Origin: Gemmatimonadetes bacterium SCN 70-22
GTDB lineage: Bacteria; Gemmatimonadota; Gemmatimonadetes; Gemmatimonadales; Gemmatimonadaceae
DNA length: 64,000 nucleotides
Assembly (NCBI GenBank): GCA_001724275.1
Contig: MEDZ01000008.1
Coordinates: 1-64,000 of the forward strand
Direction of reading: 5' to 3'
Shown: positions 26,561 to 50,640 of the stretch, in pieces
How positions within the stretch are numbered: position 1 is the stretch's first letter
Layout: each line of letters begins with the position of its first letter
Position numbers and translations under genes: made by a program
The notes under the pieces: model-generated
Told to the model about the DNA's origin: nothing
What the model saw: only the letters and a program-made list of their open reading frames with translations
Database searches by the model: none

Positions 26561-28204
26561 CTAAAACCTCAGCGAGAGCGCCAAGTAGCTCTGCAGGTTC
26601 CGGGTCAGCGCACCGGTCTCGCGGTAGGTCGACACCATGAGGTACACCGACCGGGCGAGCCCCACGTCGGCGTCGAGCCCCCACCAGGTCGTGCGCGAGT
26701 CGGTGAGAGGGTTCCCCTGCGCGTCGGCGGTCCGGCTGTCGGTGCGCCGCCCGCCGTTGGCCTGGAGGCGCAGGGTGCCGAACGGGGTGAACTCGAGCGA
26801 GGCAGAGGTGAGGTCGCCCGAGGCCAGGACGCCCGTGTAGCGCGTGCTGCGCAGCTGGACCCCCAGCTGCAACGGCGTGAGTCGCGACAGGTGGACGGAG
26901 CCGGTGTACGAGTCGGCCGTCCCGGCGGCGCCACCGCGGCTCGTGCGCGCGTCGCCGCTGACCCGCAGGTGTCCCAGGAGGTACAGCGAGGCCCCGCCCC
27001 ACGCGCCCTGACGGAACGAGTCGTCGAAGGCGGTCTCGGGATCGAGGAAGTCGCGATACAGTCGGACGCTGCGCCGGTTGTCGTACCCGCCGTACACCGA
27101 GAACGCGTCGGTCGGCGACAGGCGGATCGTGGCGAAGGTCGAGGTCGGGGTGGCGCCCGACGATTCCACGCCGGCCTTCCATCCACGGTTGACGTCGATC
27201 TCCTGCGTGGCGTACAGCGAGACGTGGCGGTTGTTGAACATCCCCTGCAGGTAGCCGAACTCCCGGTCGATCTCCCCGCCGGCGTACGAGCCGATCGCCC
27301 CCGCCGTGAGCGCCCAGGGGGCGCCCTCGTTAGGCCCGTTGTGCCACTGGACGTACGCCCCGTGCTCCCGCACCTCGCCGGAATAGCCGAAGGTCCGCGG
27401 CTCGGGCTGGCTCCCTGAGAAGCCCCCCGCACTCCAGTGGCGCCGGTTGACGTCGAGCGCCGCGCCGTCGAACAATCCCACCGACGACAGCGCGGACGAG
27501 AACTGCCGCCCGATCGCCACGCGGACGCCGTCGTCCGCCGGGGTCCACAGGAGCGCCGTCTGGTACACCCGCGTGGAGTTGGTGAGGGCGGACCCCGACG
27601 GGCGCTGAAAGCTCTGGCGATAGGCGCGCACGTCGACCACGAGGCCGAGCGGCGTCCCGTTGAGCCGCTGCCCGTCGAGCCGGAGGTCGAAGGCGGGTTG
27701 GGTGAGGGTCGTCGTCGCCGTACCGCTCCCCTGCTCCATGGTCAGGTAGCGCACGCCCACGCGTCCGCGGATCGACCGCGCGGTGTGTCGCGCGCGGGAG
27801 CGTGCCGACGAGTCGGCGCTGGCGACCACTCGCGCCGGCGCCGGCCCGGCGTCACGCACCGGGGTGAAGCGCGCCGAGTCGCCCACCGCGACCGCCGCCG
27901 CCGACGAGGCGACGGTGCACGACGCACGCGACGAGGAGACGTACGCCACCACCAGCTCGGCGATGACCGTGCTCCCGCGCACCACCTGCAGCCGGCTCCC
28001 CTCGCGCAGCCCGGCTCGGGTCCCCGCATCAAGGTAGACGGAGGGGCCGCTGATGTAGGTCACGTGCGCCCAGGCCGTCGCCTGGGAGGGCGGGGCCAGG
28101 TCCGCAGGACGCGGCGAGACGGGCGCCACCTGGGCGCCCCCCGCGATGGGCGCACAGGTCAGCGCAAGCCCGAGCCACGCACGCGACACGCGCCGGGACG
28201 CCAT
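26561..28204 (-). CDS. outer-membrane beta-barrel protein of the multiheme operon
   Basis: A 547-residue exported protein with a signal peptide (MASRRVSRAWLGLALTCAPIAGGAQ). A small SH3-like module follows at residues 45-110 (YISGPSVYLDAGTRAGLREG). From about residue 150 the sequence is a series of alternating amphipathic strands (RGRVGVRYLTMEQG, GLVVDVRAYRQSF, SLYATQEIDV) and it ends in ...LALSLRF. The terminal phenylalanine is the usual sorting signal for outer-membrane barrels. It is the last gene of the cytochrome operon, with its start overlapping the 31-heme cytochrome stop by one base (TGATG). The likely role is the porin sheath of a porin-cytochrome electron conduit; this is inferred from context and barrel prediction, not from a recognised family. 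Confidence 0.72.
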   Translation of the reverse strand: MASRRVSRAWLGLALTCAPIAGGAQVAPVSPRPADLAPPSQATAWAHVTYISGPSVYLDAGTRAGLREGSRLQVVRGSTVIAELVVAYVSSSRASCTVASSAAAVAVGDSARFTPVRDAGPAPARVVASADSSARSRARHTARSIRGRVGVRYLTMEQGSGTATTTLTQPAFDLRLDGQRLNGTPLGLVVDVRAYRQSFQRPSGSALTNSTRVYQTALLWTPADDGVRVAIGRQFSSALSSVGLFDGAALDVNRRHWSAGGFSGSQPEPRTFGYSGEVREHGAYVQWHNGPNEGAPWALTAGAIGSYAGGEIDREFGYLQGMFNNRHVSLYATQEIDVNRGWKAGVESSGATPTSTFATIRLSPTDAFSVYGGYDNRRSVRLYRDFLDPETAFDDSFRQGAWGGASLYLLGHLRVSGDARTSRGGAAGTADSYTGSVHLSRLTPLQLGVQLRSTRYTGVLASGDLTSASLEFTPFGTLRLQANGGRRTDSRTADAQGNPLTDSRTTWWGLDADVGLARSVYLMVSTYRETGALTRNLQSYLALSLRF

Positions 28205-30564
28205 CACCCCTTCGTCCCCCGTGGGTGGCAGCTGTAGCACCCCATGCTGGTGTAGGTGTAGCCCGACCGCCCCTTGTGGTCGGCGTCGACCTTGGCCTTG
28301 TCGCTGTGCTCGTGGCACAGGATGCACTCGAACTGCTTGTAGTTGCCCGCGTTCTGGTGGCAGTCGGCGCAGCTGCTCCACTTCTGCAGGTGCTTCCCGG
28401 AGTAGATCGGGAAGTAGGGCCCGTCGTGGTTGAAGGTCGCGCCCAGCCATTGCGTGGTGGTGTGGCACGTCTCGCACGACGTGGGAAAGCCCGACGTGGA
28501 GTGCCTGGGGTTGGTCGTGCTGTTGTAGTCCGCCTGGTGGCAGGAGACGCACGTCGTCGGCTTGCCGTTGTACACCTTGTCGGCGTGGCAATCGAGGCAG
28601 GTCGCCGTCGTGTGCGCTCCCGTCAGCGGGAACGACGTTGCGTTGTGGTTGTAGGTGGCCCCTGGCCATCCGGTGGTGGTATGGCAGGCGGCGCAGAGCG
28701 TCGTGAAGCCGGCGGCGGCGTGGTGGGGGTTGGTGGTGCCGTCGTATTCCGTCTGGTGGCACGAGGCGCAGGCGGTCGGGAGCCCCTTGTACACGCCGCT
28801 GGCGTGACAATCGAGGCACGACGCCGCCAGGTGGGCTCCGGTCAGCGGGAACTGGGTGGCGCCATGGTTGAAGACGGCCCCCGCCCATTGGGTCGTGGTG
28901 TGGCACGTCTCGCACGTCGTTCCGAACCCCGAGGTCGCATGCCTGGGGTTCGCCGTGTTGTTGTAGTCGGTCTGGTGGCACGAGACGCACGCGGTCGGCG
29001 TCCCCTTGTAGATCCCGGTGCCGTGGCAGTCGTTGCAGCTGGCCGCCATGTGCCCCCCCGTCAGCGGGAAGGCGGTCCTGGCATGGTCGAACACCGCCCC
29101 CGCCCACGCGCTGGTGGTGTGGCAGGTCTCGCACGTCCCCGGGAAGCCCAGCGTGGCGTGCGGGGGATTCGCCGTTGCCGCGAAGTCGGCCTGGTGGCAC
29201 GACAGGCAGGTCGTCGGCTTCCCGCGGTACACGCCGTCGCCGTGACAGGTGTTGCAGCCGGCGGTGAGATGCGCGCCGGTGAGGGGGAACTTGGTCGTGG
29301 CGTGGTTGAAGGCTCCCCCCGTCCACTGCACGGTCGTGTGACAGCTCGCGCAGGTGGTCACGAAGCCGGCCGCCCCGTGCGGCGGGTTCGTCGTCTTCGC
29401 GTAGTCGTCCTGGTGGCAGCTCACGCACTCCAGCGAGCGCCCGGCATACACGCCGTCGGCATGGCAATCGTTGCACGCGCTCCCGGCATGCCCGCCGGTC
29501 AGCGGGAACCTGGTGTTGGCATGGTCGAAGACCGCCCCAAGCCACCGGGTGGTCCCATGGCAGGTCGAGCACGTGGCGGAGAAGCCGGCCTTCGCGTGCG
29601 GCGGGTTCGCCGTGGCGTCGTAGTCGGCCTGGTGACAGGAGGCGCACGCCATCGACTTCCCCACGTACACCTTGTCGCCATGGCAATCGGCGCACGTCGC
29701 CGCCTTGTGCGCCCCGGTCAGCGCGAAGCGCGTCGCCGCGTGATCGAACGTCCCCCCCTTCCAGGTCTCCGCCCCCTGGTGACACGACTCGCACAGCGTC
29801 GGGAAGCGCGCGGCGGCGTGCGGCGGCTCCACGCTCGCGTCGTACGCCGCCTGGTGGCACGAGGCACAGCTCGTCGGCTTCCCCTGGTACGCGCCATCGG
29901 CGTGGCACCCCTGGCAGGTGACCGCGAGGTGCCGCCCGGCCAGCGGGAAGCGCGTCGTGTTGTGGTCGAACGTCGCCCCCGCCCATGACACCTGGGTGTG
30001 GCACGTCGTGCAATCCGGGGAGAACCGGGCGGCCGAGTGGTCGGGGGACCTGGCGTCGCGGAACGTGGCGGCGTGGCACCCGAAGCAGGTGACGGGGCGG
30101 TTCACGAATTGCAGCTGGCCGTTGCGGGCGGGGGTGTGGCAGCTCTCGCACGGCACGGTGGCATGGGCGCCCAGCAGCGGGAAGCGCCCGGCCTGGTGCG
30201 CTTGCGCCATGGTCGCGCGATCGGTGAAGGTGCGCGCGGTGTGGCAGCGCGCGCACTGCGTCCCGAACTCCCCCTTGTGCACGTCCTGGTGACACGACGC
30301 GCACGTCCTGTCCACCTTCGAGAAGTCGAGCGACTGGTGGCACGACGTGCACGACGTCGTGGCGTGCGCTCCCTCGAGCGGGAAGGTGCGCGGCGCATGC
30401 TGGAAGACGCGGGAGATGACCGCGGGACGCCACCCGGCCGGACTGTGGCAGGCGATGCACGTCGCCGCGACCGAGAGCCCGTGCGGGTTGTCGGTGCGCT
30501 GCGCCGCCAGGCGCCCCGGCAGCAGCAAGGCAAGCACCCCGAGGACCCAGGCCAGTCGGCGCAT
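28204..30564 (-). CDS. 31-heme c-type cytochrome
   Basis: A 786-residue exported protein (signal MRRLAWVLGVLALLLPGRLAAQ) with 31 CXXCH haem-binding motifs by my count. Motifs 8 to 28 form seven repeats of three haems, each about 56-57 residues, with the pattern CxDCHADGVYxGxPT, CxSCHQADYxxTxNPPH, CxxCHTTxxWxGA and then FDHxxTxFPLTGAH. The histidines outside the CXXCH motifs are regularly placed and could be distal ligands, giving a wire of bis-His haems. It lies between a 23-haem cytochrome and a barrel protein, each joined by a one-base TGATG overlap. A periplasm-spanning or surface role in extracellular electron transfer is likely. Confidence 0.9.
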   Translation of the reverse strand: MRRLAWVLGVLALLLPGRLAAQRTDNPHGLSVAATCIACHSPAGWRPAVISRVFQHAPRTFPLEGAHATTSCTSCHQSLDFSKVDRTCASCHQDVHKGEFGTQCARCHTARTFTDRATMAQAHQAGRFPLLGAHATVPCESCHTPARNGQLQFVNRPVTCFGCHAATFRDARSPDHSAARFSPDCTTCHTQVSWAGATFDHNTTRFPLAGRHLAVTCQGCHADGAYQGKPTSCASCHQAAYDASVEPPHAAARFPTLCESCHQGAETWKGGTFDHAATRFALTGAHKAATCADCHGDKVYVGKSMACASCHQADYDATANPPHAKAGFSATCSTCHGTTRWLGAVFDHANTRFPLTGGHAGSACNDCHADGVYAGRSLECVSCHQDDYAKTTNPPHGAAGFVTTCASCHTTVQWTGGAFNHATTKFPLTGAHLTAGCNTCHGDGVYRGKPTTCLSCHQADFAATANPPHATLGFPGTCETCHTTSAWAGAVFDHARTAFPLTGGHMAASCNDCHGTGIYKGTPTACVSCHQTDYNNTANPRHATSGFGTTCETCHTTTQWAGAVFNHGATQFPLTGAHLAASCLDCHASGVYKGLPTACASCHQTEYDGTTNPHHAAAGFTTLCAACHTTTGWPGATYNHNATSFPLTGAHTTATCLDCHADKVYNGKPTTCVSCHQADYNSTTNPRHSTSGFPTSCETCHTTTQWLGATFNHDGPYFPIYSGKHLQKWSSCADCHQNAGNYKQFECILCHEHSDKAKVDADHKGRSGYTYTSMGCYSCHPRGTKG

Positions 30565-32717
30565 CAGCGGCGCGCCTCGCGCGGGCGGGTGGCGTGACAG
30601 CTCTCGCACGACACGCCAAGCGGGCGGTACACCACGCGGGTCGTCCCGGCCGGAGCCCCGGCAACCGGCTCCCGCTTGTGGCACCCATCGCACGGCACGG
30701 CGGCGTGCGCCCCCTTCAGCGAGAAACGCGAGCGCTCGTGGTCGAAGCGCGCCGCCGGGGCAAACGCCTCGGCCCCATGGCACCCCTCGCATGCACCGCC
30801 GTCGCTGCGGCCAGCGAACTGAGTCCCGTGGGGCGTCTGGTGGCAGGTCGCGCACGAGCGCCGCTGCGGCGGGGCGAAGAGGAGCGACCGGCCGCCGCGC
30901 GCGGCGGCCACGAGCGTCGATCCGCTCCCCCGCTTCGCCAGTTCCTCGTGGCAGGCCACGCATGGCACCGCCCGGTGCGCCCCCTCCAGCGGCAAGGCAT
31001 AGGTGGCGTGCGCCGCCACATCGACCCGCGACGGACGGAAGGTGTCGGCCCCGTGGCAGCTGCGGCACGTCCCGTCGCCCGCCGCCCCACCGGGACGGCC
31101 GTAGCGCCCCCCATGCGGGTCGGCGTGGCACGACGTGCAGGCGGGATCGACGCCGGCCAGCGCCACCTTCGCCGTACCTAACGACACCGACGTGCCCCAC
31201 GCCGGGAGCCCCGGGCGCGCGGCGCCATGGCATGCCGCGCAGGCGATGGCGGCATGCCGCCCCTCGAGCGGCAGGCGCAAGCGGGCGTGCGCCGCCGCGC
31301 CGAAGGTGCTGGGGGCAAAGCCGTTCACCGTATGGCACGATTCGCACGTGGCGGCGGGGACGCGCGCCGCCAGCTGGGCGCCGTGGGCGTCCAGGTGGCA
31401 GTCGGCACACCGCGAGGCCGCCATCCGGAGGCGCACCGTGCGGGGGCTCCGCGCCATCACCGTCCCACTCGCGCCTGCCGTACTCGCCGTCGTTGCACTC
31501 GCCGTCGTCGCATGTGCGGCGGACGCGCCTGCCGCGGGGAGCGATTGCGCGGTGTGGCAGGCAGCGCACTTCACCCCCTGGTGCCTGCCCTCGAGCGGGT
31601 ACGCCGTCCGCCGGTGCTGCGCCAGCGTGAAGGCCGCCGGCGTGAACCCTTCCACCGTGTGGCAGGCCGCACAGTCGACCGTCCGGCCGCCCAACGTCGC
31701 CTCGCCCCGGTGCGCGTCGTCATGGCACGAGGCGCAGCTCGCGAATGGCGGGTTCCGGCGCGTCATCTCCCTGCCATGACAGGCGGCGCACGGCACGCCC
31801 GCATGGTCGCCTTCGAGCGGGTACCGCGTGAGGGCGTGGTTGAACGCCCGCTTGTCGATCACGCGAAAGCCGGCCGTGGTGTGGCACTCGCTGCACTTGG
31901 TCGAGAGCCGCCCCTTGTGCGGGTCGGCGTGACACGACGAGCACTCCCGGTAGGCAAGCGGCTTGAAGAGCGGGACGCGCTCGCCCTCGGCGTTGGTGCG
32001 CGTCCGGAGGCGCGGCGTGAGGTGGCACTTGTCGCAGGCCACGTCGACATGCTTCCCGTCGAGGCGGTAGTCCGCCTTGTCGTGGTCGAACGTCGGCGCC
32101 TTGTCCCACCGCGCGGCGTCGTGGCACGACTCGCACGAGGCATCGAGCGCCCCGTCGTGCACGTCGTCCGACTTGTGGCACGAGACGCAGTGGCGCTCCA
32201 GCCCCACCCATCCCGCGTCGGCCTTGCGCGCCGAGAGCGCCGCGGCCCGTCCCACCCGGTACTTCGTGGCATGGCACGCCTCGCACTTCGTGTCGGTGTG
32301 CTTCCCCTCGAGCGTCCACCCCGCCCTCCGGTGGTCGAAGCGCGCCGGCGATCCTTCGGCCCATTCGACCATCTTGAAGTCCGCTCCCGCGTGATCGGGA
32401 TGGCACGACGCACACTCCTTGCGCCCCGCACGCACCTCGCGGGCGTGCAGCCCGCGTTGCTGCTGCACGAGCCACCCGATCTCCTTGTGGCACTGCAGGC
32501 AGACCTGCGTCATGGGCGAGGCGCCCCCCTTGAGCCCGTGGCACTTGATGCAGTTGCCCGCCCCCTCGAGCGTCGCGTGGGGGCGCGCGAGGGGACCGGG
32601 CGAGATCTGCCCCCACCCCCTCGCGGGAGCCAGCAGCGCGAGGAGCCCCGTCATGAGCCACACCGCCAAGCGCGCGCCCGGCACCGGGCGTCGATCGGAA
32701 GCACGATCATGGCTCAT
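30564..32717 (-). CDS. 23-heme c-type cytochrome
   Basis: A 717-residue protein with an N-terminal export signal (VWLMTGLLALLAPARGWGQ) and 23 CXXCH motifs by my count. The repeats are less regular than in the neighbouring cytochrome but share the element FxxHxxTxYPLEGxHxxVxCAACH, so the two proteins are related. An Ala/Thr-rich insert lies about residues 395-420 (TTASATTASTAGASGT). The start overlaps the upstream oxidoreductase stop by four bases (ATGA) and its own stop overlaps the next start by one base. It may be the periplasmic partner that passes electrons to the 31-haem protein and the barrel. Confidence 0.9.
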   Translation of the reverse strand: MSHDRASDRRPVPGARLAVWLMTGLLALLAPARGWGQISPGPLARPHATLEGAGNCIKCHGLKGGASPMTQVCLQCHKEIGWLVQQQRGLHAREVRAGRKECASCHPDHAGADFKMVEWAEGSPARFDHRRAGWTLEGKHTDTKCEACHATKYRVGRAAALSARKADAGWVGLERHCVSCHKSDDVHDGALDASCESCHDAARWDKAPTFDHDKADYRLDGKHVDVACDKCHLTPRLRTRTNAEGERVPLFKPLAYRECSSCHADPHKGRLSTKCSECHTTAGFRVIDKRAFNHALTRYPLEGDHAGVPCAACHGREMTRRNPPFASCASCHDDAHRGEATLGGRTVDCAACHTVEGFTPAAFTLAQHRRTAYPLEGRHQGVKCAACHTAQSLPAAGASAAHATTASATTASTAGASGTVMARSPRTVRLRMAASRCADCHLDAHGAQLAARVPAATCESCHTVNGFAPSTFGAAAHARLRLPLEGRHAAIACAACHGAARPGLPAWGTSVSLGTAKVALAGVDPACTSCHADPHGGRYGRPGGAAGDGTCRSCHGADTFRPSRVDVAAHATYALPLEGAHRAVPCVACHEELAKRGSGSTLVAAARGGRSLLFAPPQRRSCATCHQTPHGTQFAGRSDGGACEGCHGAEAFAPAARFDHERSRFSLKGAHAAVPCDGCHKREPVAGAPAGTTRVVYRPLGVSCESCHATRPREARR

Positions 32718-34162
32718 CCGGCTTGCGCAGCGCTCGCGTTCCCCACCGGGACTTCCTTGGAGACGATCTGGATCCCCAGCCGCTCGAGGAAGGCGTACGG
32801 CGCCTCTCCCCCGATCCGGATGATCACGTGGTCGTTCGGCAGGATCGTCTTCTCCCCCTCCACATCGAGCACCACCACGTCCTGGCGGATTTCCCGCAGC
32901 TGGCTGCGGAAGATTGCCCGCACACGACCGCTGGCCAGCGCCCGCTGGATCTTCTCGACGTTGCGCTCCTTCACCCGGCTGAACGACTCGCCGCGATACG
33001 ACAGCAGCACCTCGGCCCCCTCCTGGTTGGCGAGGCCGAGCGCCGACTCCACCGCGCTGTCGCCGCCCCCCACCACCAGCACGCGCTTCCCCCTGAAGGC
33101 CTCCATCTCCACGATGTCGTAGAAGACCTTGTCCAGCTCCTCACCGGCGGCGCCCAGCCGTCGCGGCGACCCACGGCGCCCCATCGCCAGCACCACCCGC
33201 CGCGCCGTGTACGCCGCCTTCCCGGCCTGCACCCGGAAGAGCGTCCCCTCGCGCGCGATGTTCTCCACCTTCTGCCCGGTGTGCACGTCCAGCCCCGTGT
33301 TGGCCACGATCGTCTCCCACACCTGCAGCAGCGTCTCCTTGGACGCGTCGGCGATCCACAGGTCGCCGTAGAGCGGGATCGAGACCGGCTCCGCCAGGAG
33401 CAACTTGTGGCGCGGGTACTTCCGCACCGTGTCGGACAGCGTCCCCTGCTCCAGCACCACGTAGCGCAGGTGCCGGCGGTGGGCCTCCAGCCCGGCACTC
33501 AGCCCCGCCGGCCCGGAGCCCACGATCACGACATCGAGCGTGTGGTCGTCGCCATCGGCGCGCGCCTCGCCGGGCGGAAGCACCTTCGCCACGTGCTCGA
33601 TCGCGATCTTCCCCTCGTTGATCGCGTTCTTGATCAGCCCGCGCCCGCCGAGTTCGCCCACGATGTACAGCCCGCGCACGTTGGTCTCGAAGTTGACGTC
33701 GACCAGCGGGACCTGCACGCGATTGACCGCCGTCCCCGCATTCACCGAGATGGCGCCAACGGGACAGGCGCCGACACACTCGCCGTGCCCCTTGCAGAGT
33801 GCGTTGTTCACCACCGCCAGCTTCCCCTGCAGCGTGAGCGCGCCGGGCTCGGGACAGGCGGCGACGCACGTTCCGCACCCCACGCACATGTCCGCCCGCA
33901 CCAGCGCCTTCAGCGTACCTGCGCCGCTCGCCGACGGCGCGGCGGCGATTCCCGCGTTCACCACCTCGAAGATCTGCTGCGGGATTCCGCACTTGGGGCA
34001 GAACGACGATCCCGCGGGGACCGCCGCGCCACAGCGCGCGCAGGGAGCGCTCCCCCCGCGTGGTGCCGGCGCCCCCCCGGGCGCGCTCCCCCCGGGGGTG
34101 CGCAGGTGTCGCCAGATGAAGAATCCGGTGAGCGCGAAGAAGCCGACCGTCGTCAGGAGCAT
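32714..34162 (-). CDS. membrane-anchored ferredoxin / FAD-NAD(P) oxidoreductase
   Basis: A 482-residue protein: one N-terminal membrane helix (LLTTVGFFALTGFFIW), a zinc-ribbon (CARCGAA...FCPKCG), a two-cluster ferredoxin domain, and a thioredoxin-reductase-like flavin domain. The first cluster motif is complete (CVGCGTCVAACP). In the second, CKGHGECVGACP, a histidine replaces the second cysteine. The flavin domain has DVVIVGSGPAGLSAGLEA near residue 210 and a second dinucleotide motif VLVVGGGDSAVESALGLA. It probably moves electrons between NAD(P)H and haem or quinone partners. Gene context (cytochrome b-like gene 21 bases upstream, cytochromes downstream) supports entry of electrons to the conduit. 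Its substrate is not known. Confidence 0.85.
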   Translation of the reverse strand: MLLTTVGFFALTGFFIWRHLRTPGGSAPGGAPAPRGGSAPCARCGAAVPAGSSFCPKCGIPQQIFEVVNAGIAAAPSASGAGTLKALVRADMCVGCGTCVAACPEPGALTLQGKLAVVNNALCKGHGECVGACPVGAISVNAGTAVNRVQVPLVDVNFETNVRGLYIVGELGGRGLIKNAINEGKIAIEHVAKVLPPGEARADGDDHTLDVVIVGSGPAGLSAGLEAHRRHLRYVVLEQGTLSDTVRKYPRHKLLLAEPVSIPLYGDLWIADASKETLLQVWETIVANTGLDVHTGQKVENIAREGTLFRVQAGKAAYTARRVVLAMGRRGSPRRLGAAGEELDKVFYDIVEMEAFRGKRVLVVGGGDSAVESALGLANQEGAEVLLSYRGESFSRVKERNVEKIQRALASGRVRAIFRSQLREIRQDVVVLDVEGEKTILPNDHVIIRIGGEAPYAFLERLGIQIVSKEVPVGNASAAQAG

Positions 34163-34183
34163 CTGTATGGCGTCGTCCGGCGC

Positions 34184-35224
34184 TCAGTAGAACCAGGTTG
34201 CCCCGACGGCAACCACGACGACGACGTGAATGACGACCGCCACCAGCGCCGTCAGCGCGAACGGCTTGTGCGCCACGTGCCAGTAGCGGAAGACGCGGTG
34301 CGTGGCGTCGAGCATCCGCACCTGCTGCGACAGCGCGATCTCGCGGCTCGCCAGGCCGACCGCGCGCGCGAGCGTGGCCGGCGGGATCGTGCGTCCTCCC
34401 TCGTGCGCCTGGAACCGGCGCCGCAGCTCGCGCGTCTTGCGCCAGCGCTCCACGTCGTTGGCGACGAGGTCGCGCAGTACCCGCAGCGCCCCCGCCTTTT
34501 CGTCGCTCGGCGACGCCATGCGCAGCGTTTCCTCCACCGTGCCCCGATCGAGCCCCGTCGCCCCGGCGATCTCGTCGACCAAGCGGGTTCGCTCGGCGAT
34601 CACCTCATCGCGTGTGAGCTCGACCCCCGAGCGCGCCCGCGGGATGCGCGTGTACAGGTAGCGCCCCACGACGCCGCTCGCGCACACCACGAGCATCGCC
34701 CCGAACCCCAGCCCGATCACCCCGTCCGACCGCCAGGCGGCGTGCACGGTGAGGAGGAGGGGGAGTCCGATCGCGGTCGTCACGTGTACATCGAGCCACT
34801 TGCCGATGGGACCCGTGAATGCCAGCGCCTTCCACTTCTTGCGCAGTGGGTACAGCCACAGGAAGACGAAGACGACGAAGGCGACGATCCCGGCGCTCTG
34901 CCCCACGAGCCCCGAGGGGCGCAACAGCGCATGCAGGGGGTGCCGCACCCGCTCGGCCAGGGGGCGAAGGTAGTACGGCGCGCCGGCGACGTTGATGACG
35001 AGAAGCGACGCCACGATGGAGACCGTCGCCCAGTTCACCCCGACCCCGCTTCGCGATCCGCCGCGCACCGCCGGGGAGGCGGTTCTCCCCGCGACAGCGG
35101 GACGCCCGAGGGTGGATGGCGGGGACGACGCGCCCGCGGGGCTTGCCACCAGGTGCGGGGGTGGTGCGACCGGAGGACGCGCCGTCGATGGCGGTGAGGC
35201 GTGCGCGAGGTTGCCGTGGTTCAT
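34184..35224 (-). CDS. cytochrome b-like membrane protein
   Basis: A 346-residue protein with five hydrophobic segments and a Pro/Ala-rich cytoplasmic start. Histidines lie in helices at DVHVTTAIGLPLLLTVHAAW and in the last pair (HRVFRYWHVAHKPFALTA, then VVIHVVVVVAVGATWFY). These are the usual sites for b-haem ligands, so this is probably a cytochrome-b561-like quinone oxidoreductase subunit. A soluble helical insertion of about 120 residues separates the fourth and fifth helices (RDEVIAERTRLVDEIAG). It is the first gene of the operon leading to the multiheme cytochromes. Its start (35224, MNHGNLA) is best guessed; a longer frame upstream looks non-coding. Family assignment is an inference from histidine placement. 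Confidence 0.65.
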   Translation of the reverse strand: MNHGNLAHASPPSTARPPVAPPPHLVASPAGASSPPSTLGRPAVAGRTASPAVRGGSRSGVGVNWATVSIVASLLVINVAGAPYYLRPLAERVRHPLHALLRPSGLVGQSAGIVAFVVFVFLWLYPLRKKWKALAFTGPIGKWLDVHVTTAIGLPLLLTVHAAWRSDGVIGLGFGAMLVVCASGVVGRYLYTRIPRARSGVELTRDEVIAERTRLVDEIAGATGLDRGTVEETLRMASPSDEKAGALRVLRDLVANDVERWRKTRELRRRFQAHEGGRTIPPATLARAVGLASREIALSQQVRMLDATHRVFRYWHVAHKPFALTALVAVVIHVVVVVAVGATWFY

Positions 35225-38917: not shown

Positions 38918-39166
38918 ATGTCCTGGCCCCGCCTCGTTTTCCAGCTCACGCTCGCCGCCCTGCGCCACCCGCCGCTGGCGGTTGACCTCCTGCGCGTGGC
39001 GTGGCGCTTCCGGGCAGACGGGTGGTACGCGCGCTTTCCCTTCCTCCCCCTCCCGTCGCGGGCGTACGTACGCTGGCGCATGCACACCGCCTACGGCGAC
39101 CCCGACGCCGTCCCACCCGCCGGCGACATCATCCGCTACGCCCGCTGGGTCGGCACGCAGCCATGA
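38918..39166 (+). CDS. conserved small protein upstream of queG
   Basis: An 82-residue protein (MSWPRLVFQLTLAALRHPP) with basic and aromatic residues and the C-terminal AYGDPDAVPPAGDIIRYARW. I do not recognise a named family. Its stop codon overlaps the queG start in an ATGA arrangement, so the two are probably translationally coupled. A linked function is possible but not shown. Confidence 0.6.
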   Translation: MSWPRLVFQLTLAALRHPPLAVDLLRVAWRFRADGWYARFPFLPLPSRAYVRWRMHTAYGDPDAVPPAGDIIRYARWVGTQP

Positions 39167-40326
39167 GCGACCCGGCGCCCGCTCCCGGCGCGGCGACGGC
39201 GCCCGACCTCCCGCTCGAGCGGCGCATCGAGCGACAGGCGTATGCGCTCGGCTTCGACCTCGTCGGGATCGCCAGGCTGGGGGAGGTGGAGACGGCCGGG
39301 TACTACGACGAGTGGGTGGCGCGTGGGTGCGAGGGGGAGATGGGATACATGGCGCGCGACGCGCACTTGCGCCACGATACCCGCCTTCCGCACCCCGGCG
39401 CCGTGAGCGCGATCGTCGTCGGGATGGACTACGGCGGCGGCGAGCCGCCGGGCCCCGTCGCTCGTTATGCACGAGGCGACGACTATCACGACCTGATGAA
39501 GGAGCGGCTGCGCGCCCTCCACGCCTGGCTCGCCACGGCGCTCGGCCGTGAGGTGGATGCGCGCCCCTACGTCGACACCGCTCCCATCCTGGAGCGCGAC
39601 CTGGCGCGGCGCGCGGGGCTCGGGTGGTTCGGGAAGAACACGAACCTCATCAATCCCCAGCGCGGATCGTTCTTCTTCATCGGGTCGCTGTTCGTGGCGC
39701 TCGAGTTGCAGCCGAGCGCGCCGTTCGAGGCCGACCGGTGCGGGAACTGCACGCGGTGCCTCGACGCCTGTCCGACCGATGCCTTCGACGGTCCGCGGCA
39801 GCTCGATGCGCGCAAGTGCATCTCGTACCTCACCATCGAGCACCGGGGGGAGATCCCCGAGGCCTTGCGACCGTTGCTGGGGGAGCTGCTGTACGGGTGC
39901 GACATCTGCCAGGAGGTGTGCCCGTATAACCATAAATTCGCGAAGGAACTATCCGAGCCCGCGTTCGCGGCACGCCCCGCGCTGTCGGGCAAGGACGCGA
40001 GGTCGCTCGCGCGCGAGCTGCTGGCCATGTCGCAACCCGAGTTCTCCGCCGCCTTCAAGGGCTCGCCCATGAAGCGCGCCAAGCTCCGCGGGTTGAAGCG
40101 CAACTCCGCCGTGGTGCTCGGCAACGCCGGGTCTCCAGACGACGTGGCGGCGCTGGCGGCGGCGCTCTCTGACGAGGAACCGCTCGTTCGTGGACACGCC
40201 GCGTGGGCGTTAGGCGCGATCGGCTCCGCCGAGGCGCTCGAGCCACTGCGGGCTCGTGCCTCGGCCGAATCGGACGCCTGGGTACTGGAGGAGCTGAACG
40301 CGGCGGTCTCCCGGCTCGGGGGCTGA
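39163..40326 (+). CDS. queG: epoxyqueuosine reductase QueG, with 3' end supplied by the mobile element
   Basis: A 387-residue QueG. It reduces epoxyqueuosine to queuosine in tRNA using cobalamin and two [4Fe-4S] clusters. The cluster motifs are complete: CGNCTRCLDACPTDAFDG and CDICQEVCPYNHKF, and the C-terminus has HEAT-like repeats (VVLGNAGSPDDVAALAAAL, LVRGHAAWALGAIG). The first 249 codons are host chromosome. From the crossover at 39910/39911 the coding sequence belongs to the integrated element, which carries a homologous 3' end in frame, so the full protein is restored. The host's own 3' end is left as a fragment at 63262-63610. The start at 39163 overlaps the upstream small gene. Confidence 0.93.
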   Translation: MSDPAPAPGAATAPDLPLERRIERQAYALGFDLVGIARLGEVETAGYYDEWVARGCEGEMGYMARDAHLRHDTRLPHPGAVSAIVVGMDYGGGEPPGPVARYARGDDYHDLMKERLRALHAWLATALGREVDARPYVDTAPILERDLARRAGLGWFGKNTNLINPQRGSFFFIGSLFVALELQPSAPFEADRCGNCTRCLDACPTDAFDGPRQLDARKCISYLTIEHRGEIPEALRPLLGELLYGCDICQEVCPYNHKFAKELSEPAFAARPALSGKDARSLARELLAMSQPEFSAAFKGSPMKRAKLRGLKRNSAVVLGNAGSPDDVAALAAALSDEEPLVRGHAAWALGAIGSAEALEPLRARASAESDAWVLEELNAAVSRLGG

Positions 40327-42035
40327 CTGCCTCCGAGCTCGAAGTACGCCGGCGCGTTTGGCGCGGTCCTGAGCGTGACGACCGCCGTCTTGTGGTTCGC
40401 CCGCTTCATTCCGGGCACCGGCTCGACCACGATGAGGACGTCGGCCACCCAGTAGTCGAGCAGGATGGTCCGCTCCTCCGGTCCCGCCGTCTCCCATGCA
40501 TCCGCCAGGTTCCGCGACTCGTGGATGATGCTCGAGAGACGGTCCCACGCGCTCTGGCGCGACTGCGCAAAGCGCTGCGCCTCCGCCAGCTGCGCCTTGC
40601 TGGCGCCGACCTGCTGCTTGGCCGCCTTGAGCCGCTCGACGAGCGCGTCGTCGCCATCGTCGTCGTCGGACGCCACGGCCGCGGCCATGTGGGCGAGACG
40701 CTTGTACGCCGCCTCGCGCTGCGCCAGCTCCTGCTCGGCGCGCGCCACGGCGTCTTCCGCCGACTTGCGGAATTCGTCGCGCTCCAGGATGAGGTCGCGC
40801 GCCGTGGCCTCGTAGTCGGCGTTGCTGCTACGCTGCGCCACGATGAGGTCCTTGATCTTGGTCTCGAGTTCCTCGGCATCCACGTACCACGCCTTGCAGC
40901 CGGCGGCCGAGAAGCGCTCGAACCTCTCGGGGTTCATGCGCTCCTTCGGCTTCGCGTGGACGTAGCCACGCGTTCCGCCCTGCTTCTTCGCGAGGCGGCC
41001 GCCGTTGTACTCGACACCGCAGTGTGCGCACGCTGGCTTCAGCGGAAATAGCTCCTCGTGGCGCCGCTGTCGTTCCCCATCCGCCTTCGAATGTCCACCG
41101 ATTTCCTTCTCCACCTCGCGGAACAGCTCGACGTCAACCATGGGACCCCACTCCGCTCGCTCCCGGCGGCGCATGCGCTTCCCTTCCTTCTCTTCACCCA
41201 GGAACGCGATCTCTCCGACGAGCACAGGATTGCTGAGGTAGTTCCGGACGGAACGATGTCCGAGCTTGCCACCTCGCGCACCGCGCACGCCCTGCTTGTA
41301 TAGCTCGGCGCCGATTCGGTCAAGGGACACACCCGCGAGATACTTCCTCGCCATCGGCTCCCAGTGCTTCAGCACCTCGTGATCGGGGATTAGGATCGTC
41401 CCTCCGCCGCCAGGCGTGGAGCGCTGCCCGTCGGCTAGTTCGCGGTCGGAGAGCGTGTCCCACCGCTTGGTACCCCACGGCGCGCTTCCGCCGACCCACC
41501 ACCCCTTGCTCGCGTGGCCGATTCTGCCGCGCCGCACGCTCTTCGAGAGGTTCGCGGAGTAGAGCGCCGCGGCGTAGGCGTAGAGCGCCATGGTGATCAT
41601 GTCCACCAACTGGTCGTTCGTCCGCTGCACCGTGACGAAGCAAATCCGCCAGTTGTAGCGCTCAAACTCGGAGAACACCGACTGGAAGGCCATGATGTCC
41701 GGTTGGCCGTCCTCGTCTAGCGTGCGTCCGAAGCGGCTCGGGTCATATAGCTCGACCCGTCCAGGATTCGACTTAGGCCGGGGGTTCTGACGGCAGAATT
41801 CGAGAAGGTCTTGGAACTCCGGCCGGTCGAACGAGGTGCCGGAGCAGCTGTCCTTCCACCACCACTCGCGGCTGATCGGCCCCCAGACCTCATCGGCGGC
41901 ATGCGCCTGCTGGTCGTGCGAGGCCACCTGGCGGTCCTCGCTCTCGGTGGACTTGCGCGTGTAGCGCAGGCGGTCGGGAATGATTCCGAACGCGGCAGCC
42001 AAGCGTTCGCGCCAGACGCGGAAGATCTTACTCAT
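39567..42035 (-). CDS. large serine recombinase (integrase)
   Basis: The open frame encodes 822 residues. The N-terminus is a serine-recombinase catalytic domain (RLRYTRKSTESEDR, catalytic serine probably S29). Next come a recombinase domain (RRGRIGHASKGWW, SVRNYLSNPVLVGEIAF), a zinc ribbon starting CAHCGVEYNGG and a long coiled coil (RDEFRKSAEDAVARAEQEL). The recognisable protein ends near residue 569 at about 40329. Beyond this the frame continues without a stop through the antisense of queG, across attL, to 39567 in host DNA. In the excised circle the same frame would instead cross the joined site and stop at 63184, giving 734 residues. The start at 42035 overlaps an upstream small gene by eight bases. 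This enzyme is the best candidate for integrating the element. Confidence 0.88.
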   Translation of the reverse strand: MSKIFRVWRERLAAAFGIIPDRLRYTRKSTESEDRQVASHDQQAHAADEVWGPISREWWWKDSCSGTSFDRPEFQDLLEFCRQNPRPKSNPGRVELYDPSRFGRTLDEDGQPDIMAFQSVFSEFERYNWRICFVTVQRTNDQLVDMITMALYAYAAALYSANLSKSVRRGRIGHASKGWWVGGSAPWGTKRWDTLSDRELADGQRSTPGGGGTILIPDHEVLKHWEPMARKYLAGVSLDRIGAELYKQGVRGARGGKLGHRSVRNYLSNPVLVGEIAFLGEEKEGKRMRRRERAEWGPMVDVELFREVEKEIGGHSKADGERQRRHEELFPLKPACAHCGVEYNGGRLAKKQGGTRGYVHAKPKERMNPERFERFSAAGCKAWYVDAEELETKIKDLIVAQRSSNADYEATARDLILERDEFRKSAEDAVARAEQELAQREAAYKRLAHMAAAVASDDDDGDDALVERLKAAKQQVGASKAQLAEAQRFAQSRQSAWDRLSSIIHESRNLADAWETAGPEERTILLDYWVADVLIVVEPVPGMKRANHKTAVVTLRTAPNAPAYFELGGSQPPSRETAAFSSSSTQASDSAEARARSGSSASAEPIAPNAHAACPRTSGSSSESAAASAATSSGDPALPSTTAELRFNPRSLARFMGEPLKAAENSGCDMASSSRASDLASLPDSAGRAANAGSDSSFANLWLYGHTSWQMSHPYSSSPSNGRKASGISPRCSMVRYEMHLRASSCRGPSKASVGQASRHRVQFPHRSASNGALGCNSSATNSDPMKKNDPRWGLMRFVFFPNHPSPARRARSRSRMGAVST
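39886..39933. other. attL of the serine-integrase element
   Basis: Left junction inside queG. It contains the 17-bp core CCAGGAGGTGTGCCCGT (39909-39925) shared with the right junction, with the putative crossover dinucleotide CA at 39910-39911. To the left is host queG coding for CDIC; to the right is the element arm ATAACCAT (39926-39933), the inverse of the arm at the right end. Confidence 0.85.
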
Positions 42036-42297
42036 TCACGCTCTCCAGGAGCTTGTCGGTGATGATCTCGGCGTAACGGCGCCGACGAACGCGATTGAGG
42101 ACTTCATCGCGCAGACGATTCTCCACAATGGCCGCGCGTTCCGCGAGCACGGTCGGGTTGATGAGCCGGGCGATGCGATCGGGCAGCTCGCGGGAGGCGT
42201 GGGTCGTCACCCCTCCCCGCGTCTTCCCGATGTCGCTCTTGTTCGTCGCCACGGCGTCGCCTGACCTGGTCCGCACCGAGCGAGCCGAAGTGCCCAC
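42028..42297 (-). CDS. small basic protein upstream of the integrase
   Basis: An 89-residue protein from a GTG start at 42297, with a helical, charged C-terminal half (IVENRLRDEVLNRVRRRRYAEI). Its TAA stop overlaps the integrase start by eight bases, a sign of translational coupling. No family is recognised. A role as an accessory to recombination (for example a directionality factor) is only a guess from position and size. Confidence 0.5.
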   Translation of the reverse strand: MGTSARSVRTRSGDAVATNKSDIGKTRGGVTTHASRELPDRIARLINPTVLAERAAIVENRLRDEVLNRVRRRRYAEIITDKLLESVNE

Positions 42298-42600
42298 AAG
42301 CGGTGTACAAACTCAGGGTAGGGGACTTCGCTGAGCACCCGGGAGTGTCTCCGGCCACGAGTTTGGGGGGCCTGATCTTGGCCTCTCTATCTCGCCCTTC
42401 TGTCCACACCTGAGGACAGACAGGCGCGCAGGCTGGCGCCGAGATCCCACGATTGGGCGCGGGGATACGCCCCAGTGACAGCCCAAGGGCTCAGGCGAAC
42501 GGCCGGTCAGGCCCAGGTGGCCTCCTTGGCTTCGCGGTGGCGGTGTCACACCTGCGGGTAGATGCTCGAGACGCGGTCCCCCGCTGGGAGCTCGAACGAC
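42298..42600. other. intergenic region upstream of the integrase operon
   Basis: About 300 bases with no gene, between the integrase operon and the end of the ATPase gene. It holds the dyad at 42401-42418 and is expected to hold the integrase promoter. Nothing else was recognised. Confidence 0.5.
42401..42418. promoter_or_regulatory. operator-like inverted repeat
   Basis: An 18-bp dyad TGTCC-N8-GGACA; 14 of 18 positions are symmetric. It lies about 105 bases upstream of the integrase operon, in position for a regulator. No partner is known. Confidence 0.35.
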
Positions 42601-44247
42601 CTAGAAAACACTCTCCGAGACTGGCCCCAGCCCACCATTGTCAAACCCAGTGTCGCGGCCCGGTCGCGCGCGCGCGATCCGCAAGGAGTCCGGCGCAAGT
42701 TCGATCACATCGCGATCTCGAGCGTCGAGTGCCGATAGCAGCGCCTCCTGCAACGCATTCACGAGCCACCCACCCGCCGTACGCGGCGTTGCCCCCTCTC
42801 GCCCACGAGTTACGGCACGCGCCGCGCGCGTAATCGTCTCCGGGTGAACGACAACCTTGTATCCGAGGCGTTCGCAGACGTCGCGCAGGCTCGCGAAGGC
42901 CGGCCATTCGCGCAGCAAGCTGGCGAGGGATCCCTCGCCGAGCTTCCGGAGGAGCAGCACATCGTGGAAGCGGCTCGAGATCTCCACAGGGAGCCCCGCT
43001 TTCGCCAAGTCGGCGATGGTGGGCTGCCGCGTCGAGTCCAGCAGGCCCTCAAACGCGCCGAGGGCGAGCACCATCGCCTCCTTGGCACTCCAACCCCGGT
43101 ACTCAGAGCCGACCGCCAACGTGCCGTGTCCCAGGACCCCGAGCAGGGATGCCAGCACCTCGGACCGCTTGGCGGCCATGTTGCCCGTTAGCTCAGAGGC
43201 GGGGGCGACGCCGACGTGATGGATCTCGTCGATCAGGACAATTGCGCGTCGGGCCCACGGCGAGTCGTACCTGCGACGGCCGAGCGCGGTCCCAATGAGG
43301 TCGTTGATGGATGGAGCTCCGCTCCACCCCGGGCTCGTCAACTCGACCGCGTCTACCGTCACGACGGGCAGGTCGAATCCAGCTTCGGTGAGCGACCGGC
43401 ACAACGCTCTCACGAGGGACGTCTTCCCAACACCGCTCGGCCCGACAATCAGGGCCCGCTGGCCATGTGTGAGGCCACCACCCACGTGAAGTGCTCCGAT
43501 CAACGCAAGGCGGGCGACAGCACCCTCCTGCCCCACGATCTCCTTCCCGATTGCGGCGCGGAGGTCGCGGACAAGGTTCCGGAGCTGATCTGCCGGCAAT
43601 GCTTGGAGGCCCTCGCGGGAACTTCCGCTATCACCGCCCACAGCTGGAATCGTGTCCGATGCGGCGGCTGCCGCCTTAGCCGACGGCGCAGGAAGACGTG
43701 TATGAGACTTCCCGGCGCCCGTTGCGATCCTTGGCGGCCGACGGGCACCGTCGAGCCGCCAGTACGCGTCGGCAGCGGCGAGCAGTGTGACGCCCGAGCC
43801 AATCTCCGCCGCACAGGTGTCACAGAGGACATGGGGCGGCTCAAGCGCACTCGCCGGCCGGAGGTGGGCAGGCCGTTGCCCGCAGCATGCGCAGGTCTGG
43901 GCACAGAGGCTCACCAGCTGCTCGGCGATACCCGACAGTGCCAAGGGTCCCAGCCGGGGGATCTCATCGTCATCCCGCTGCCGGGGATCCCTCGCCGGAT
44001 GGTCAAGCGGATCCGAGTCGCTGAGGAGGCTGAGCCGCAGCAGACCATCGACCTCGCGGCACTCGCTCACGATGAATGCCTCCTCGTCGATCCAGAGGGG
44101 GCCAACCACCGGCCACCACCCGGGGCCCACACTGGCCCGTGCGATCGCCGCGGAGACGCCAGTCGGTCGAGCCGGAGGTCCGCCGGCCGTGGGGAACAGT
44201 GAGATCTGCTCTGCCGATCGGTTGTTGGCTTCGAGTTCGTCGCTCAT
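42601..44247 (-). CDS. ClpX-like AAA+ ATPase with zinc-finger-like region
   Basis: A 548-residue protein. The C-terminal half is a AAA+ domain: EIVGQEGAVARLALIGAL before Walker A, IVGPSGVGKTSLVRAL (K275), a pore-loop-like stretch SPGWSGAPSINDLIGTAL, and Walker B RRAIVLIDEIHH (D340, E341). The order and wording resemble ClpX/HslU unfoldases. The N-terminal half has two CXXC pairs (TCACCGQ near 119-122, LCDTCAAEIG near 142-145), as in the zinc domain of ClpX but in a larger, unrelated-looking context. No peptidase gene is nearby. It could unfold the integrase or Rep, or serve in defence. It is divergent from the gene at 44491. Confidence 0.7.
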   Translation of the reverse strand: MSDELEANNRSAEQISLFPTAGGPPARPTGVSAAIARASVGPGWWPVVGPLWIDEEAFIVSECREVDGLLRLSLLSDSDPLDHPARDPRQRDDDEIPRLGPLALSGIAEQLVSLCAQTCACCGQRPAHLRPASALEPPHVLCDTCAAEIGSGVTLLAAADAYWRLDGARRPPRIATGAGKSHTRLPAPSAKAAAAASDTIPAVGGDSGSSREGLQALPADQLRNLVRDLRAAIGKEIVGQEGAVARLALIGALHVGGGLTHGQRALIVGPSGVGKTSLVRALCRSLTEAGFDLPVVTVDAVELTSPGWSGAPSINDLIGTALGRRRYDSPWARRAIVLIDEIHHVGVAPASELTGNMAAKRSEVLASLLGVLGHGTLAVGSEYRGWSAKEAMVLALGAFEGLLDSTRQPTIADLAKAGLPVEISSRFHDVLLLRKLGEGSLASLLREWPAFASLRDVCERLGYKVVVHPETITRAARAVTRGREGATPRTAGGWLVNALQEALLSALDARDRDVIELAPDSLRIARARPGRDTGFDNGGLGPVSESVF

Positions 44248-44479
44248 CTGGCGAGTCTACCGGTGCGGCGAGGGATCCCCGGCCAGCTTCCGTCCTTTCG
44301 CCGCGAAGCCCGGCTGCTGGACTGTCGCTGACGAGGCGCCGCTCCAGCAACTCCGAAATCTGCGGCGCTCCTCGTGAGCGGCGAGGTCCTCCCGCCGAGA
44401 ACACCAGGATGACTTGCGGCGCCGACGCCTTCCGCCCCACAGTTCCGGTGGCCGGCGGGGCGGATGCCGGTGCACCCCG

Positions 44480-44487
44480 AAGGAGGT
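44480..44487 (+). promoter_or_regulatory. strong Shine-Dalgarno site
   Basis: The site AAGGAGGT sits three bases before the ATG at 44491. It makes this the likely start rather than the in-frame ATG at 44464. Confidence 0.7.
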
Positions 44488-44490
44488 GAG

Positions 44491-44895
44491 ATGGCGCCTG
44501 ACACGATGAGCGACGACGAGTTCCGGAAGGTGTGGTACCTCTGGAGGGCGTCTCGCGGTATTGAGCCGCCGTACAGCGAGTACGCGCACACGACCCCACG
44601 TCCGCGACCGACTGATGCCGAGGCGGCCGCCGCCCTCGCGCAACTCGTCGATGCGTGGCCGGCGATCGCCGGCGCCTCGCTCGCGGCCCAGTGCACGCCG
44701 GTCGCCCTCACCGGACGGAAGCTCCGCCGCCTCCTGGTCGCTGCTGATTACACGACCGCGCCCCCGTGGGGCGCGTGGGATCGCCTGGGCCCACTACCAG
44801 CACGCGCGACCTTCACGGCGCTCCGCCACGCGGTCAACGCAGTGTTGGCGCCGCATGGCGTAGACCACATCGACTTCGTGCCGCAGTCTCCCTGA
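44491..44895 (+). CDS. hypothetical protein
   Basis: A 134-residue protein beginning MAPDTMSDDEFRK, starting at the ATG behind a strong ribosome-binding site. The sequence is helical and has no recognised motif; aromatic residues cluster in VWYLWRASRGIEPPYSEY and PPWGAWDRLG. It is divergent from the ClpX-like ATPase and followed by the HNH nuclease gene. Function unknown. Confidence 0.6.
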   Translation: MAPDTMSDDEFRKVWYLWRASRGIEPPYSEYAHTTPRPRPTDAEAAAALAQLVDAWPAIAGASLAAQCTPVALTGRKLRRLLVAADYTTAPPWGAWDRLGPLPARATFTALRHAVNAVLAPHGVDHIDFVPQSP

Positions 44896-44993
44896 GGCGC
44901 GCCGCTCGCGCGGCGACCCGATACGCAGCCTACGCGTCTCCTCAATGAGAGCGGTTAGGGTGACCGCCGTCTCGCCTGCTCCACCTCCCCTTC

Positions 44994-45539
44994 ATGGTCC
45001 GGCCTACCCTCGTCTGTCGGCGATGTCGCACCCGGCTCCCGCGGGCGGAGTTCCTCACCTCTCGCGACAGCTCCCGGGCCCGGGAAGGGCTTTGCCGCGC
45101 GTGCCGAAGCGCCGCCAACTCGCCTCGCATCCCGCGCGCGCTTCGGGCGGAGCTCTTTCGGTTGGCCGAGGGCTGCTGCAGCTACTGCGATCTCCCGCTC
45201 GATCCCACCCACCGCTGGGATGTCGATCATGTGACCGAGCGATCCCGTGGTGGACCGCACGTCCGCACCAACCTCGTGGTGGCGTGCAGTCGCTGCAATT
45301 GCGTGGTGCTCTTCCAGTATCCGCAGCAGGTCGCCTGGCGCTCGCGACGCCCGGGCGGCGCCACATGGGCCGCGCGCCTGGGCCTCACCACGCTGGAGAC
45401 CTTCTGGGAACGTCGCAGCTTCGTGCAGGCGGCGCTCCGAGCGGACGGTCGCCCGAACGGACTGGCGAGCCTCGCCACGGTACAGCGACGGGTGGCGCAT
45501 CTCGCGCCGGCGCTCGTCGCTTTCCACAACCCGAGCTGA
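44994..45539 (+). CDS. HNH endonuclease
   Basis: A 181-residue protein. An N-terminal zinc-binding pair (VCRRCRTRL at C8/C11 and LCRACRSAAN at C34/C37) precedes a typical HNH domain: CSYCDLPLD (C62/C65), DVDHVTERSRGG with the catalytic D78-H79, N93 and the closing CSRCN (C98/C101). Such enzymes nick or cut DNA and are found in phages, restriction systems and mobile elements. Its job here is not clear; it may act in defence or in processing of the element. The tail after residue 105 is a helical extension. Confidence 0.85.
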   Translation: MVRPTLVCRRCRTRLPRAEFLTSRDSSRAREGLCRACRSAANSPRIPRALRAELFRLAEGCCSYCDLPLDPTHRWDVDHVTERSRGGPHVRTNLVVACSRCNCVVLFQYPQQVAWRSRRPGGATWAARLGLTTLETFWERRSFVQAALRADGRPNGLASLATVQRRVAHLAPALVAFHNPS

Positions 45540-45600
45540 GTACATCCCGAGGCCCAGCGGGCTGTTCCCCTGAGTCACCCAGCCATCGTCGCGGGGCTGG

Positions 45601-45819
45601 TCAGCCCGGCCGACGCGGGGGGCGAGCCTCCGGAGCGCGATGATCCACCTCTACCCAGGTATCGGCCTCGGCCGGGTTGGGCACCACCTCGATCAGATCG
45701 TTGTCCGCGACCACTATCGCGCCGCGGAGCCCGGGGCCACTGACTGACTCGAGTTTCGAGATGCGACCGTCGAGGCGGCGGATCAAGGCGCCTTGGCGCA
45801 GGATGTGTTGCGTGGACAT
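45601..45819 (-). CDS. small hypothetical protein
   Basis: A 72-residue protein from the ATG at 45819 (MSTQHILRQGALIRRLDG). It has a short helical first half and a beta-like middle (GAIVVADNDLIEVVPN). No family is recognised. It is the last of a run of minus-strand genes beginning with Rep, and could be an accessory of replication. Confidence 0.4.
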   Translation of the reverse strand: MSTQHILRQGALIRRLDGRISKLESVSGPGLRGAIVVADNDLIEVVPNPAEADTWVEVDHRAPEARPPRRPG

Positions 45820-45992
45820 GAGCGATCCCGGAACAGGAAAACCGGCAGCGGGCACTCGTGCCCGGCGGGCGCGCCGGCTGCCAAGCACCGGTCTTTCGCC
45901 CGATCTGCCTCCCTGGTCATGGACGCGCTTCGGCCGGCCCGCGTCATCACGGGTACGACGGCTCTCTCAGCTCACCCGAACTCCGGAACGCG

Positions 45993-46439
45993 TCAACGCC
46001 GACTCGAGTCGGCGGCGCCGACAACAATGAGCAGCACGACCGCCAAACCGACAGCCGCTCCCACCATGCGGCCGACCTCGGGGTCGAATCGCCCACCAAG
46101 CCAGGCTGCGAGGGCCACGAATCCGATCGCCGCGGCAATTCCAAGGGCGAGCAGGACGAGGGCCCCGATCAGGCCCGCCACCGCAGCCAGCAGCCCGAGG
46201 AGGAGGTCCCCGACCACCCAAAGCCCCCGCCCGAACGAGCCGAGCACCCAGACCATCGCCTCCATCCACAACGGTTCCGCGGGGACCGGCGGTGGCGGCA
46301 GCGCCGGGGGTGGCAACTGGCGCAGCGTCGCGCGCTCGTACTGAAGGGCGCCGCTCTCGTAGTACCGCCTTTCGAGCACGCGCTCGTCGGCGGTCGGGGT
46401 CGGGAAGCCGGGGTCGTGGACTCGGGGGGTCGGAGCCAT
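45993..46439 (-). CDS. membrane protein
   Basis: A 148-residue protein from the ATG at 46439 (MAPTPRVHDPG). It has a Pro-rich linker (LRQLPPPALPPPPVPAEP) followed by three hydrophobic stretches: MVWVLGSFGRGLWVVGDLLL, an Ala/Leu/Ile-rich helix, and MVGAAVGLAVVLLIVVGAA at the end. No function is recognised. The frame is open upstream to 46691 but that part lacks coding character. Confidence 0.55.
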   Translation of the reverse strand: MAPTPRVHDPGFPTPTADERVLERRYYESGALQYERATLRQLPPPALPPPPVPAEPLWMEAMVWVLGSFGRGLWVVGDLLLGLLAAVAGLIGALVLLALGIAAAIGFVALAAWLGGRFDPEVGRMVGAAVGLAVVLLIVVGAADSSRR

Positions 46440-46680
46440 GCTGCAGGCTACGCGACGAAGCGCGATCGGCTGGCGGACACGTAGTCTGTGGCAGTTTTTC
46501 TCAGCGCCAGCTCGACGGCCGTCGGCGCTGTGGGTGAGGCGAGGATCCTTCCGGGCGCCGTCTGTGCGAGTCGCTAACTCGTTGCTCGGGTTCGACATGC
46601 CGCACCCCAATGACGACGGGAAGATCACCGCCGATCTGCTGAGCTGCATTCGTGCAACTCCCTTGAGGTTCACAGGCGCG

Positions 46681-47604: not shown

Positions 47605-47636
47605 AGTCCGCGAGTCGGCGCGATTGTCGCTGGCGC

Positions 47637-50553: not shown

Positions 50554-50640
50554 TTCAACCTTTTCGGACGTTTTTGACCAGTCGGTGCCAGCCCGGGTGA
50601 TCAACCGGCGCTCTTCTGCCGCGCCGACAGATCGACGGCA

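Follow-up and report, generated by a model that had tools for sequence, protein, structure and literature searches.

The window (the whole 64,000-nt stretch analysed here) carries a row of five minus-strand genes at 26561–35224, encoding a membrane b-type protein, a ferredoxin-flavin enzyme, two large multihaem c-type cytochromes and an outer-membrane barrel. The placement of the two cytochromes across the cell envelope is predicted by analogy with PCC3, described in 2017 by He et al. as a 'porin-cytochrome c complex' (PMC5566968). In 5' to 3' order on the minus strand, the genes are as follows.

34184..35224, minus strand: inner-membrane di-haem b protein (PCC3 inner-membrane protein, IMP), 346 aa, with two WX3HX13H motifs and an SGxxG motif
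32714..34162, minus strand: membrane-anchored ferredoxin-FAD/NAD(P) oxidoreductase, 482 aa, with Pfam Pyr_redox_3 and Fer4 domains and a circularly permuted FAD domain
30564..32717, minus strand: 23-haem c-type cytochrome, 717 aa, 23 CxxCH motifs, predicted to be periplasmic
28204..30564, minus strand: 31-haem c-type cytochrome, 786 aa, 31 CxxCH motifs, predicted to be extracellular
26561..28204, minus strand: 22-strand outer-membrane beta barrel (AlphaFold2 model), 547 aa, ending in a C-terminal Phe

A gap of 21 nt, read from the sequence, separates the end of the IMP gene from the ferredoxin-FAD gene, after which successive genes overlap by 4 nt (ATGA, into the 23-haem cytochrome gene), 1 nt (TGATG, into the 31-haem cytochrome gene) and 1 nt (TGATG, into the barrel gene). 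The five-gene row, the start-stop overlaps among its last four members and the 54 haem sites proposed in the initial annotation were thus all recovered, the CxxCH count being exactly 23 + 31. Multihaem cytochromes are otherwise absent from the window, every other open frame holding at most one CxxCH. Outside the window, the same genome has two cytochrome c3-type matches (G000:C31:27950-28174, L142, and G000:C7:51315-51569), whose frames are 231 and 763 aa long.

Elsewhere in the window, the stretch 39567–53728 resembles an integrated mobile element with the following genes.

39567-42035, minus strand: serine recombinase
47637-49559: rolling-circle Rep_1 protein
49708-50553, plus strand: serine recombinase
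51581-53728: N6/N4 DNA methylase

A recombinase frame ends within a queG-like gene on the opposite strand (39001–40326), which may therefore be the insertion site.

The 31-haem cytochrome is built from seven tandem 73-residue units with three haems each, a regularity far beyond chance, and carries one haem per 25.4 aa; its homologues in a wide scan contain 9–58 haems. The 23-haem cytochrome is less densely packed (31.2 aa per haem), begins with a hydrophobic stretch, and keeps its haem number of 23 in relatives. Extracellular-type PCC3 cytochromes of Azonexaceae-like and Bradyrhizobium metagenome-assembled genomes bear 58 (L078), at least 74 (L085, which reaches the locus end), 58 (L087) and 53 (L081) haems. 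The proposed role of the operon depended on a barrel being predictable at 26561–28204, and structure prediction gave an outer-membrane barrel: an AlphaFold2 model (pLDDT 81.9) built on 28 homologues, with the Emticicia plasmid protein left out of the alignment, places 22 strands across residues 145–546, preceded by a small beta domain at 44–113. Its fold matches in the PDB (Foldseek, VIA-align) are outer-membrane protein barrels, including OccK7, TonB-dependent receptors and the PapC usher, with Z scores up to 16.7, although by sequence the protein has no Pfam or NCBIfam family (NCBIfam searched at E up to 1) and no PDB relative. The barrel is conserved within the cluster in relatives. A chance run of CxxCH motifs and a soluble detoxification enzyme were both ruled out by the repeats, the barrel and this conservation.

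The composition of the operon had been judged unlike that of known conduits. MtrCAB and the Geobacter conduits are indeed different, but the features singled out as distinctive, another inner-membrane partner and very high haem numbers per protein, belong to the published definition of PCC3, namely a porin, an extracellular multihaem cytochrome (median 34 haems), a periplasmic multihaem cytochrome (median 21 haems) and an IMP (PMC5566968). The published IMP is a protein of ∼300 aa with five transmembrane helices, an SGxxG motif and two WX3HX13H motifs (PMC5566968); the periplasmic-type cytochrome has ∼21 haems, or 21–27 in Gallionellaceae (PMC5566968, PMC10734462); and the extracellular cytochrome has many haems, internal repeats and a low ratio of amino acids to haem (PMC5566968). 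The operon matches in its IMP motifs (W143-x3-H147-x13-H161, S183-G184-x2-G187 and W315-x3-H319-x13-H333), its 23-haem cytochrome, its repeat-built 31-haem cytochrome and the porin in the cluster. The motif histidines are invariant in nine IMP homologues, Bacteroidota included. The IMP has no family in Pfam or NCBIfam, and a simple hydropathy scan gives four clear segments, with the H147–H161 motif helix falling below threshold. A profile of the IMP, for which Gemmatimonadota and Emticicia sequences but no Proteobacteria were used, matches both PCC3 copies of genome G358 (9e-30 and 2e-28), which have 24/28 and 17/21 haems, the same counts as published for Sideroxydans lithotrophicus ES-1 (PMC8788666); G358 is almost certainly that strain. 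The closest relatives assign the window to Gemmatimonadota; further ones occur in Gallionella, Thiobacillus and others, groups in or near those with described PCC3. Since motifs, haem numbers, repeats and gene content all fit, and the IMP profile finds both G358 copies, the operon is a PCC3 cluster and not a new kind of conduit. The role of PCC3 in extracellular electron transfer is itself a predicted, candidate one (PMC12442390).

The ferredoxin-FAD gene, listed in the initial annotation as a mere component of the row, is present and proves to be the part missing from published descriptions of PCC3. Its product (Pyr_redox_3, 7.9e-45, plus Fer4) begins with a transmembrane helix, modelled at residues 2–21, and also contains an insert resembling a zinc ribbon, a pair of ferredoxin cluster motifs, and domains for FAD and NAD(P) like those of thioredoxin reductase (TrxR) and YpdA. 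The FAD domain is circularly permuted, the piece that is usually C-terminal (FETNVRGLYIVGELGG, ∼153–195) preceding the Rossmann motif; once this piece is placed last, the thioredoxin-reductase match reaches profile position 300 of 300 instead of stopping at 247 (78.8 to 93.0 bits), and undoing the permutation raises the YpdA match from 171 to 184.8 bits. The TrxR-like part has no CxxC disulfide, the only CxxC positions in the protein (41, 55, 93 and 96) all lying before it. In the second cluster motif, C123-x2-H126-x2-C129-x3-C133-P, histidine takes the place of the second cysteine in 80/80 of the best relatives from the wide scan, and in the first motif the second cysteine is kept in 43/80; such second-cysteine substitutions occur in [3Fe-4S] ferredoxins. 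At one locus (L119, genome G277; FAD gene from 1435), isoleucine replaces the histidine of the second motif (CKGIGECVAACP), indicating that histidine is not strictly required at this position. An N-terminal hydrophobic helix is found in 117/123 homologues, and lysine and arginine are more frequent after than before the helix in 109 of these 117; on the strength of this charge bias, the catalytic part is predicted to face the cytosol. From the fold, we infer that the enzyme uses NAD(P)H.

The distribution of this enzyme follows that of the IMP closely. Both occur in the same eight of 41 near relatives, and across 298 Gemmatimonadota genomes the enzyme was found in 30 and the IMP (searched with the window's single protein as query, E below 1e-20) in 31, with 28 holding both, a co-occurrence with a Fisher p of ∼1e-33, uncorrected for shared ancestry. 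The two genes share a contig in 26 of these 28 genomes and lie within 1 kb in 18. In four of the five discordant genomes the contig ends at the locus, truncating the enzyme in G181 and bounding the cluster in G070, G196 and G305; the fifth, G150, has a partial match without ferredoxin motifs. The 80 best enzyme relatives of the wide scan span about ten phyla, and 67 of them have an IMP within 10 kb; by record titles, the taxa with both are Gemmatimonadota, Acidobacteriota, Eisenbacteria, Pseudomonadota, Ignavibacteriota, Bacteroidota, Zixibacteria, Nitrospirota, Desulfuromonadales and Myxococcota. Searching from the IMP in Gallionellaceae, the enzyme gene was found nearby at 22/29 loci, mostly divergently oriented and within 200 bp, and the seven loci that lack it include four second copies, each from a genome in which the enzyme accompanies the other copy.

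Gene orders vary among clades while the enzyme–IMP pair persists. A plasmid of Emticicia oligotrophica (Bacteroidota) has the same five-gene order as the window, with 23 and 40 haems. In G002, from the window's own genus, the IMP is 69% identical to that of the window, and the enzyme, its gene divergently oriented, groups with Pseudomonadota sequences in a quick tree made with no bootstrap (SH-aLRT 98 for the 48-row set); with an enzyme of another lineage beside a conserved IMP, it looks as though the enzyme was replaced while the conduit stayed. The FAD gene is divergent or several kilobases distant in many clades and some PCC3 copies have none nearby, so the enzyme need not share a complex with PCC3. 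A distant relative (30% identity) lies among glycosyltransferases, not cytochromes, on a Pseudoalteromonas plasmid (L010, 8004–10358), a context indicating that this family of enzymes extends beyond PCC3.

The initial annotation proposed a complete electron path from NAD(P)H or quinone to the surface; a trans-envelope conduit is indeed the best reading of the operon, while its link to NAD(P)H and the direction of flow are points that we infer. A PCC3-type conduit provided with its own cytosolic entry enzyme has, in our judgement, an even chance of being correct. In such a conduit, FAD would take electrons from NAD(P)H and hand them to the two Fe–S clusters; both b haems of the IMP would come next, followed by the 23-haem periplasmic cytochrome and then by the 31-haem cytochrome, which would sit in or on the 22-strand barrel. 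The final extracellular acceptor could be humics, a metal oxide or a second cell. Anatomically, electrons could travel without a break from NAD(P)H to the surface. Quinone was proposed as the partner of the IMP by He et al. (PMC5566968), and the IMP could use it. A broader and more tentative proposal, which we hold as a working idea somewhat short of probable, is that across about ten phyla PCC3 is an NAD(P)H-linked conduit and not a quinone-linked one for iron oxidation. The permuted enzyme would then feed the di-haem b protein directly and, through it, a 17- to 27-haem wire, which would make the system a bacterial counterpart of NADPH oxidase with its terminus at the cell surface.

Electrons could also run the other way, with Fe(II) or minerals feeding the quinone pool inward, as in the model of He et al., and the FAD enzyme either working independently or drawing on membrane potential to make NAD(P)H. 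Fe(II) oxidisers are where PCC3 was discovered, and it was modelled accordingly (PMC5566968); many of the relatives belong to Gallionella and Thiobacillus; and expression of the IMP gene from one PCC3 copy rises in iron-oxidising Sideroxydans CL21 (PMC12442390). Both PCC3 clusters of ES-1, however, go down on Fe(II) versus thiosulfate (PMC8788666), RuBisCO was not found in the organism's genome by searches whose controls worked, and the He et al. model does not include a flavoenzyme of NAD(P)H type as partner. The lack of detectable RuBisCO makes outward disposal the likelier direction and, together with the ES-1 expression data, leads away from autotrophic Fe(II) oxidation; outward electron disposal is accordingly favoured with moderate confidence, and uptake is possible, if on balance unlikely.

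The FAD/ferredoxin enzyme might instead stand outside the respiratory path as a maturation factor, supplying reductant for haem attachment or thiol reduction while the conduit works as published, a notion encouraged by the resemblance of its flavin domain to thioredoxin reductase and YpdA and by a ccsA cytochrome-biogenesis gene in the Emticicia cluster. The want of a CxxC disulfide in the TrxR-like part, the two Fe–S cluster motifs and the tight tracking of the IMP make this improbable. Slightly more doubtful still is that both cytochromes serve as a periplasmic capacitor without reach to the outside; the 54 haems speak for it, and a capacitor role has been suggested for proteins of this sort (PMC11495043, PMC10734462), yet storage would not need a barrel, which is conserved in the cluster.

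With the conduit itself already known as PCC3, what is new is its partner enzyme and the range of phyla. In the readable literature (supplements, figures and closed papers aside), no account was found of a FAD/ferredoxin gene with PCC3, of the permuted architecture or of the phylum-wide linkage, and the main texts of the PCC3 papers contain no mention of 'FAD' or 'FAD-dependent'; the partner enzyme is apparently undescribed. The inner-membrane electron source of PCC3 has so far been hypothesised, and a conserved partner enzyme offers a concrete entry point at which NAD(P)H can be set against quinone, as well as a marker gene for finding complete PCC3 systems. The known range of PCC3 is widened to Gemmatimonadota, Acidobacteriota, Eisenbacteria, Ignavibacteriota, Bacteroidota and others.

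Compared with PCC3 as published (PMC5566968), the operon shares a porin, a large repeat-built extracellular-type cytochrome, a periplasmic-type cytochrome of ∼20 haems and a motif-bearing IMP in one contiguous cluster; it differs in its host (Gemmatimonadota, as against mostly Proteobacteria), in the ferredoxin-FAD gene inside the operon, and in a barrel of 22 strands where up to 42 transmembrane regions have been reported. MtrCAB, MtoAB and PioAB likewise combine a porin with multihaem cytochromes across the outer membrane, but with 10 haems in place of 23 and 31; membership of the MtrA-type decahaem family was rejected (TIGR03508, ∼58 bits against a cut-off of 192.2), as was that of the MtrB/PioB barrels, the window barrel having no TIGR03509 match in NCBIfam at E up to 1. 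MtrB is also absent from the lists of fold matches, an absence that carries no weight either way. Geobacter OmbB-OmaB-OmcB, with haem numbers of 8 and 12, is set apart from the 23- and 31-haem pair by these counts. The flavoenzyme has the FAD and NAD(P) domains of YpdA and of the TrxR-fold ferredoxin-NADP reductases, from which it is distinguished by its permutation, its fusion to a two-cluster ferredoxin and membrane anchor, and a flavin part without CxxC; identity as a YpdA bacillithiol disulfide reductase was rejected, since neither TIGR04018 score, as encoded or unpermuted, reaches the cut-off of 339.9 bits. Ferric reductases and NADPH oxidases have a flavin module of another fold family, and the Pfam Ferric_reduct profile gives no significant match (E 0.2), yet the likeness to their membrane domain extends to HX13H pairs on two helices and to a cytosolic flavin NAD(P)H module, here a separate protein.
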